Positions 2,564-30,288 of a DNA stretch of 64,000 nucleotides are shown in pieces. The notes below the pieces were generated by a model that searched no databases, was not told the origin of the DNA, and was given only the letters and a program-made list of their open reading frames with translations. Each line of letters begins with the position of its first letter. The first letter of the stretch is position 1. Location: positions 99,501 through 163,500 of the forward strand of contig NZ_CP015506.1 of the NCBI RefSeq assembly GCF_000294775.2. Direction: 5' to 3'. Position numbers and translations under genes: made by a program. The DNA comes from Cytobacillus oceanisediminis 2691. GTDB lineage: Bacteria; Bacillota; Bacilli; Bacillales; Cytobacillaceae.

Positions 2564-2683
2564 AAAAGCGGAGGCGACTGTTCAACTTCGAGAGACGTTG
2601 GAGAGCCGGCCATTCAAATCCTGGTTTTGGGATTTGGAGGGACGGATCGAAACGGCCGAGAAGTTAGGAGCCGAAGCTAGACA
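2564..2683 (-). repeat. Hairpin repeat element inside the 23S-5S spacer (copy 1)
   Basis: A 120-bp segment of the 23S-5S spacer that starts AAAAGCGGAGGCG and ends AGCTAGACA. Read on the minus strand it begins TGTCTAGCT and ends CGCCTCCGCTTTT, the same two ends as the element at 28080-28200. The interior folds as a nested hairpin: AACTTC 2584-2589 with GAAGTT 2660-2665, CGGCC 2607-2611 with GGCCG 2654-2658, and CAAATCC 2615-2621 with GGATTTG 2630-2636. The spacer is 204 nt in total, which seems much longer than the roughly 50-60 nt I recall for B. subtilis. It is probably a mobile or REP-like sequence that is now part of the rRNA precursor; function unknown. Confidence 0.6.
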
Positions 2684-8757: not shown

Positions 8758-8877
8758 AAAAGCGGAGGCGACTGTTCAACTTCGAGAGACGTTGGAGAGC
8801 CGGCCATTCAAATCCTGGTTTTGGGATTTGGAGGGACGGATCGAAACGGCCGAGAAGTTAGGAGCCGAAGCTAGACA
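8758..8877 (-). repeat. Hairpin repeat element inside the 23S-5S spacer (copy 2)
   Basis: The same 120 bp as 2564-2683, shifted by 6194, with the same AAAAGCGGAGGCG and AGCTAGACA ends and the same nested hairpin. The flanking spacer is also the same up to position 8948, so the element was present before the two operons were homogenised. Orientation is opposite to the copy at 28080-28200. Confidence 0.6.
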
Positions 8878-27967: not shown

Positions 27968-28036
27968 TCCATGCACGAAGCAGATTTAGGGATGAGGTTG
28001 CGACGCTGAATTTTGTTTCACTCGCAACCTTTGTTC

Positions 28037-28078
28037 TGTCTAGAGCAGGCGCCTTTGACCGAGGCGCCTCCGCTTTTA
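28037..28078 (+). repeat. Internally deleted copy of the hairpin repeat
   Basis: This 42-bp segment starts TGTCTAG, reads through AGGCGCC and ends with the same 23 bases as the full element immediately downstream (28056-28078 equals 28178-28200). It looks like the two ends of the element joined without the central hairpin. Confidence 0.6.
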
Positions 28079-28079
28079 G

Positions 28080-28200
28080 TGTCTAGCTGCGGCGCCTAGC
28101 CCCTCGAGTCATAAGCTAATCCTCCCGGAAAGGTAAAGATCACCTTTCAGTGAGGCTCGTCTTATGCTTGTCGGGGCTGACCGAGGCGCCTCCGCTTTTA
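28080..28200 (+). repeat. Full-length hairpin repeat element in the rplK-rplA spacer
   Basis: 121 bp starting TGTCTAGCTGCGGCGCC and ending GGCGCCTCCGCTTTTA. It folds into a long nested hairpin: AGCCCC 28098-28103 with GGGGCT 28173-28178, CATAAG 28110-28115 with CTTATG 28161-28166, and GAAAGGT 28128-28134 with ACCTTTC 28142-28148. The T-rich end after the stem makes it terminator-like in the direction of rplA. The ends match the element in both 23S-5S spacers in reverse. No ORF. Confidence 0.7.
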
Positions 28201-28248
28201 CTCGTGGGAGGTTATTCCGCTAAAACCACAATCAAGGAGGAAATAAAA

Positions 28249-30094: not shown

Positions 30095-30106
30095 TAACAT
30101 TTATGA

Positions 30107-30134
30107 AAAGTCCGCTGCTTAAGCGGGCTTTTTG
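30107..30134 (+). terminator. Terminator of the rplJ-rplL unit
   Basis: AAAGTCCGCT 30107-30116 pairs with AGCGGGCTTT 30122-30131 around a 5-nt loop, followed by TTTGTTTTG. It lies 12 nt after the rplL stop. Confidence 0.88.
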
Positions 30135-30171: not shown

Positions 30172-30288
30172 TGTCCAGCTAAACAAGGAACGCTTCGTCA
30201 GCTTTATCATCGTACGACTAAAAGCATCGTGTTACGGAGGAGCCTGTTCCCTCGAGGTGTCGGGGAAGGGAAGGGCGCTTCTGCTTTT
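30172..30288 (+). repeat. Diverged member of the hairpin repeat family
   Basis: 117 bp beginning TGTCCAGCT and ending GGGCGCTTCTGCTTTT, the same end pattern and near-equal length as 28080-28200, with a different interior. The GTGTCGGGG near 30258 resembles the element's TGTCGGGGCTGA arm. Stem pairing is weaker (GGAAC near 30187 with GTTCC near 30246). It fills most of the 301-nt gap between rplL and ybxB. Confidence 0.45.

Follow-up and report, generated by a model that had tools for sequence, protein, structure and literature searches.

The spacer between rplK and rplA of Cytobacillus oceanisediminis 2691 holds an apex-deleted and a full copy (positions 28037–28199 of the window, the whole 64,000-nucleotide stretch of DNA that was analysed) of a repeat of about 121 bp that is probably a non-autonomous mobile DNA hairpin. 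According to the prediction, an enzyme acting in trans moves it in the form of a folded single DNA strand, and it lands directly downstream of terminator-type hairpins. The repeat is likely REPIN-like and terminator-targeting. It is found inside core and rRNA operons, has no Rfam match and, for most of the host genus, is present in each genome tens of times.

The spacer extends from the end of rplK (27968) to the start of rplA (28249) and contains, in this order, a hairpin with a T-rich stretch, a short copy of the element, a full copy and the GTGGGAGG...ACCACA motif, which may be L1-binding-like (Table 1). An earlier note on this DNA had described a tandem structured repeat with one full and one internally deleted copy, and both are indeed present: none of 200 shuffles folds as well as 28030–28210 (z −4.20), the 23-base direct repeat is exact, and the short copy keeps both ends and lacks the centre. 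The 121-bp repeat of that note stands, with a homologous core of 120 nt at this site, and so does its hairpin, whose consensus comprises 30 pairs in six to eight helices instead of three tiers. Scores refer to R1, a covariance model built from an alignment of 23 diverse copies; its matches in the window are the full copy, the short copy, both 23S–5S copies (minus strand) and, weakly, 30228–30288. The 232 residues of RplA are identical to those of Cytobacillus firmus DS1 RplA, so the host genome is close to C. firmus.

Table 1. Copies of the hairpin element and neighbouring features, in positions of the window
Feature	Position	Strand	Evidence
Full copy of the hairpin element (core, TGTCTAGC...GCTTTT)	28080..28199	+	R1, 130 bits (training member of R1)
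Apex-deleted copy, both ends present	28037..28077	+	R1, 30.3 bits, E 1e-4, model positions 1–121 without the centre; outside the training set
Exact 23-bp direct repeat, first copy (shared right end)	28056..28078	+	Sequence identity
Exact 23-bp direct repeat, second copy	28178..28200	+	Sequence identity
Conserved hairpin (GGTTGCGA...TCGCAACC) and T-rich stretch 3′ of rplK; putative landing site	27996..28036	+	Comparison with 80 relatives
GTGGGAGG...ACCACA motif before rplA, downstream border of insertions	28204..28230	+	GTGGGAG and ACCAC in 80/80 relatives
Diverged whole copy in the first 23S–5S spacer, antisense to rRNA	2564..2683	-	R1, 72 bits (training member)
Same copy in the second 23S–5S spacer	8758..8877	-	R1, 72 bits
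Broken copy with inserted module, behind the terminator-like hairpin of rplL (30106–30134)	30172..30288	+	Weak R1 match at 30228–30288, 17.8 bits, E 0.061; extent by reading

The frame of the rplK–rplA spacer, with a hairpin after rplK and a motif before rplA, is ancestral. A hairpin with a T run follows rplK in 77 of 80 relatives by script and is visible by eye in the other three (L034, L035 and L036), where it falls outside the script's window; the GTGGGAG...ACCAC motif precedes rplA in all 80. The T run leads directly into GTGGGAG, leaving a bare junction, in 38 of these relatives, and the spacer measures at most 128 nt in 45. An R1 match (E up to 0.1) lies inside the spacer in 11 of the 80. 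Shorter remnants can be seen by eye between the hairpin and GTGGGAG in further relatives of several genera, and in some spacers, again from several genera and by eye, a short and a full copy stand in series. At L024 and L036, the latter a relative's rplK–rplA spacer, a module CACCAAG...CTTCCTTGGATG...CGCAGGAAC is inserted in the hairpin's 3′ strand.

The element belongs to a large family. Its own genome yielded 47 matches with the window copy as query and 52 with the consensus, and each of 13 genomes of the genus searched with the consensus, its own included, yielded 9 to 69, fragments being included in all these counts; the consensus search gave a match in 17 of 21 genomes. The earlier note suspected that similar sequences are common in related Bacillaceae, and the genome searches that it proposed returned many copies, not a single occurrence: of the 249 genomes scanned in the order, 188 carry an R1 match, and they represent 82 of 106 genera. 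In a scan of the class, 39 of 299 genomes match, of which 19 belong to the same order, 19 to family f49 and one to family f78. Copy numbers per genome are lower bounds, drawn from the best 40 candidates (own genome, genus and rrn), 14 (order) or 12 (class). The repeat is confined to chromosomes, with BLAST matches of the consensus in only one of 72,556 plasmid records and none of 50,697 phage records. No description of the repeat was found among the literature matches listed, and no paper among them holds two of its four motif words, only the 9-letter word being present. Words like TGTCTAGCTCC presumably recur in Bacillaceae sequences.

Other copies in the window and in related genomes are diverged, broken or nested. 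The earlier note had linked the ends of the element to both 23S–5S spacers; the kinship is real and extends beyond the ends, since each spacer carries a whole, diverged copy on the minus strand. An R1 copy is also found in C. firmus DS1, in the stretch that corresponds to the region downstream of rplL (L032, 3482–3602). A second subfamily (TGTCTAGTTGCGGCTCC...GTCGCCTCCACATTTC) is nested in the first at L022, L023, L025, L026 and L028 (about 1150–1830), beside the apical helix (CACAAGC/.../CAATCC), and at L128 (G003:C1, about 839009–839643) two subfamilies, of the CCCCC/GGGGG and ATCGGC/GCCGAT types, alternate in tandem with a period of about 256 bp. In longer variants (L016, L029, L013, L187 and L176) the insertion of a module adds small hairpins, for example CCCAC-AGGAT-GTGGG and GCCAC-AGGAC-GTGGC, whose loops are alike and whose stems differ; in L176 a further module is nested inside the inserted one. 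The idea that these are CsrA-like GGA loops was discarded because the motif does not fit.

Presence and absence at orthologous and paralogous sites show that the element moves, as it is polymorphic between species, within species and among the rrn operons of one genome. Its reading as a non-autonomous mobile element, one of several offered by the earlier note, is supported. Among the matches listed for the rrn operons of G000, at least seven 23S–5S spacers hold a full copy, at least two an apex-deleted copy, and at least two are empty. The full copies of that genome are 98–100% alike, and its rrn copy without an apex is a counterpart of the short copy between rplK and rplA. In an alignment of four spacers, the empty rrn site reads ATGA/TTTGG and the filled one ATGA-CTTGTCTAGC...GCTTTTCGT-TTTGG, with no target duplication. 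A duplication of constant length was looked for at this site and at other junctions and was not found; the repeats differ in length, and the short ones seen at some junctions (L184, L130 and L134) could be target duplications.

Joined-flank searches, one of which covered 11 of 16 joined sites, found empty alleles for other sites as well, including one in a conspecific genome. This genome (G021) is empty at the L017 site over 400 joined bases, with an identity that rounds to 100%. The copy at L017 shares 90% identity with the consensus, and gain cannot be separated from loss at this site because G004 also carries a copy there (L122). Copies are oriented along the leading strand in 35 of 42 own-genome matches (from 47) and in 72 of 91 typed rows of the genus (from 100, nine G011 rows left out), a bias that assumes a terminus opposite the origin and is inseparable from gene direction.

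Copies lie next to unrelated genes and are enriched, in one orientation, directly behind structures formed by a hairpin and a T run. When the flanks were read, many copies proved to have an intrinsic terminator directly on their left, and empty alleles already carry these terminators. In the genus, where 88 distinct sites were kept from 119 copies, a hairpin and T run lies to the left on the same strand at 43 sites, against 6 to the right, 1 to the right on the other strand, 3 at 300 upstream, 7 at 200 upstream and 3 at 200 downstream. In other genera, a terminator stands to the left of 27 of 80 first copies (taken from 82 arrays; both samples consist of best-scoring matches), against 1–5 of 80 in the controls. 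The left window also scores high when it is read on the other strand (27 of 88 genus sites, 13 of 80 in other genera), because these hairpins are symmetric palindromes.

In the genus, 34 of 47 hairpins end 35–44 nt away from the core, since many of its sites have a conserved left arm, about 34 nt long, ahead of the core. Outside the genus the distances show no peak, and in family f49 only 3 of 20 sites have a terminator on the left. About half of the sites are without a scored terminator; by eye, many of these directly follow an older copy, whose right end forms a hairpin that closes with GCTTTT. Tandem arrays make up 37 of the 82, and all 59 linkers measure 2–6 nt.

REPINs are thought to be moved by Y1 transposases (RAYTs) (PMC3116915), which makes these enzymes the obvious suspects. 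It is nevertheless unlikely that the element is a true REPIN moved by a resident REP-associated tyrosine transposase, despite an architecture and scale like those of REPINs (PMC3116915). The two are associated across 249 genomes (156 with both Y1_Tnp and the element, 32 with the element only, 33 with Y1 only and 28 with neither; odds ratio 4.1, p 1.2e-5, kinship of genomes ignored), and RAYT-like proteins of 192–220 aa occur in some congeners. However, Y1_Tnp is missing from seven of 15 congeneric genomes, five of which hold 48–61 copies and two of which lay outside the copy search, and from 32 of the 188 carriers, at least 14 of which have at least 14 scored copies. Typically, a RAYT gene is flanked by its repeat, whereas the element lies within 1.5 kb at only one of 20 Y1 loci (L272, IS200-type) and at none of the seven RAYT-like loci. 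Furthermore, the three RAYT-like proteins tested score 59–64 bits, under the NCBIfam cut-off of 80.

A RAYT or IS200/IS605 flanked by the element was also sought in its own genome and rejected, as the sole Y1 gene is apparently in a prophage and has only short chance words within 1.5 kb. Two observations on Y1 genes can be added: L272 has a terminator on one side and copies of the repeat on the other, and the congener G009 has nine Y1_Tnp matches of identical score, the one tested being IS200-type by NCBIfam. REP units carry a terminal GTAG tetranucleotide (PMC3733652). By reading, terminal GTAG is absent from the element, whose core begins with TGTC and ends with GCTTTT.

It is improbable that the element is a classical MITE, which would have arisen by deletion from a DDE insertion sequence and would move as double-stranded DNA by way of short inverted repeats at its ends. 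A longer form in the genus, which starts with TAAGAAAG and ends with CTTTTCTTA, does have a short inverted repeat, and the short repeats at some junctions are possible duplications. Yet the rrn site has none, junction repeats elsewhere differ in length, the terminal repeat and the arm are missing from the rplK–rplA copies and from many others, and no insertion sequence with the same ends was found among 30 left-arm loci. When the left arm was searched as a pattern, 28 of these loci led into core-like sequence, one did not and one ended at a contig end, so that the candidate route to an autonomous partner through the left arm was abandoned.

Covariation throughout the fold also argues against a MITE, as it runs through all helices up to the apex and a protein that reads two ends would need none of it. 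The strong signal, obtained with a covariance model as the earlier note had advised, amounts to 122 double-change cells against 38.0 ± 5.8 in shuffled alignments; the weakest of five shuffle measures, that of further pair types, was reached by 22 of 500 shuffles. With 143 distinct rows, in an alignment fitted to the model, the count rises to 1043 against 308.0 ± 18.7, and sliding controls are far lower.

Covariation can arise in DNA or in RNA, and the two differ in their intermediates: a fold needed in RNA is expected to show G–U as a common intermediate and A–C as a rare one. With MAFFT and RNAalifold, 140 sequences of the element gave 47 GT and 76 AC cells, against 138 and 4 in the L10 leader passed through the same pipeline (79 sequences from the 80 relatives and the window) and 13 and 2 in the acceptor stems of 29 filtered tRNAs. 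Matches of 110–126 nt entered this pipeline, and column pairs were kept from 80% pairing upwards, which left 21 of 24 in the element and all 21 in the leader. Counted over the whole model alignment, GT fills 48 cells and AC 90, with GT/(GT+AC) = 0.35 (genome bootstrap 0.25–0.49, 11 genomes); G053 alone supplies 33 of the 90 AC cells, and GT exceeds AC in G000 and G197. The 84 genus sites gave 14 and 17, and in the 143-row alignment no pair has a wobble as its common type.

Since GT is no commoner than AC, unlike in real RNA, the fold seems to matter as DNA and not as RNA, and RNA of neither strand appears to explain the conservation well. Equal GT and AC could partly reflect the neutral decay of dead copies. 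The slight AC excess gives a weak hint of the bottom strand, as does the DNA fold of the window copy, which is more stable for that strand (−30.8 versus −27.4 kcal/mol); as DNA, the 23S–5S copy folds little better than shuffles (z −1.45). Counting GT against AC offers an easy way to tell structure kept at the DNA level from structure kept at the RNA level, and it could be used on other unassigned structured repeats.

These counts speak against the proposal that the sequence is a cis-acting RNA kept for its RNA fold, be it an rplK–rplA attenuator, a processing signal or a 3′-end stabiliser. The strong fold, the GC hairpin ending in TTTT, the location within an operon and the strong covariation would all suit such an RNA, and the earlier note had considered an attenuator or a stabilising 3′ structure. 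As a selected function, neither fits a fold with G–T as rare as A–C, copies that lie beside unrelated genes and antisense to rRNA, a junction that is uninserted in 38 of 80 relatives, and the lack of any Rfam match (a match to a known family was one of the outcomes that the note had named as refuting). This explanation is very improbable.

Least plausible of all, and hardly to be entertained, is the idea that the element is a short sequence carried along by the machinery of group IIC introns: these introns have a DNA stem-loop on the 5′ side of their insertion sites (PMC10190682), which is the same sort of target, and the element does insert behind a stem-loop, but it has no Rfam intron match and no RNA-type wobble signature, and RVT_1 is missing from five of 15 congeners (four with 39–61 copies, the fifth, G022, outside the copy search), which rules out a group II reverse transcriptase as a requirement.

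Searches for Y1_Tnp and reverse transcriptases found no mobilising enzyme. Both are missing from many carriers or congeners; hence a DNA hairpin mobilised in trans is preferred, and its enzyme is left unnamed. The substrate of this trans-acting enzyme would be the folded single strand, possibly the bottom one, and its targets would be exposed terminator hairpins. In the rplK–rplA spacer, a first copy may have landed behind the conserved rplK hairpin and then lost its apex, and a second copy would have landed behind the apex-deleted one.

A broader proposal can be put forward tentatively, as a possibility that falls well short of the preceding reading. Intrinsic terminators might serve, across the order, as landing pads of a single-stranded DNA hairpin system run by a non-Y1 enzyme that reads fold over sequence, perhaps on the bottom strand. 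Integron attC sites are known to be read on the bottom strand. Because a landed copy ends in a terminator-like hairpin, it could act as the next pad, and tandem arrays would be built in this way. If the repeat does target terminators, the stop signals of transcription are at the same time insertion sites for DNA hairpins, and this would account for the accumulation of such repeats at gene ends with the genes left intact.

Among known systems, REPINs come closest. The element is a short non-coding palindromic repeat with many chromosomal copies and a covarying stem, which is what characterises a REPIN, and it also shares with REPINs a presence/absence polymorphism and, probably, the lack of an enzyme of its own (PMC3116915). 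It differs from the REPINs of that account in sequence and length (a 121-nt core, in some copies with a 34-nt left arm), in its one-sided orientation behind terminators, in having no adjoining RAYT and in the many carriers without a Y1 gene (PMC3116915). Group IIC introns are likewise inserted beside a DNA stem-loop, at replication forks; they are ribozymes with a reverse transcriptase (PMC10190682), whereas the 121-nt element holds neither ribozyme domains nor an intron-encoded reverse transcriptase, as judged by the lack of an Rfam intron match.

Closer to the host, bcr1–bcr3 of the Bacillus cereus group are also MITE-like repeats between genes of Bacillaceae, present in tens of copies and with TTTAT, a T-rich motif, at their sites; compared by description only, they differ in being described as limited to the B. 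cereus group (PMC6542083, PMC3446304). Unnamed stem-loop families, listed as Bhal-1 and Bant-1, occur in other Bacillus species (PMC2267715). Finally, BOX, RUP and SPRITE of Streptococcus pneumoniae, again compared by description only, belong to other hosts, and landing behind existing terminators is not described in the available part of their account (PMC10969869). Like the element, they are small repeats that lie between genes, fold strongly, form clusters and are found inserted in each other, and SPRITE is terminator-like (PMC10969869).
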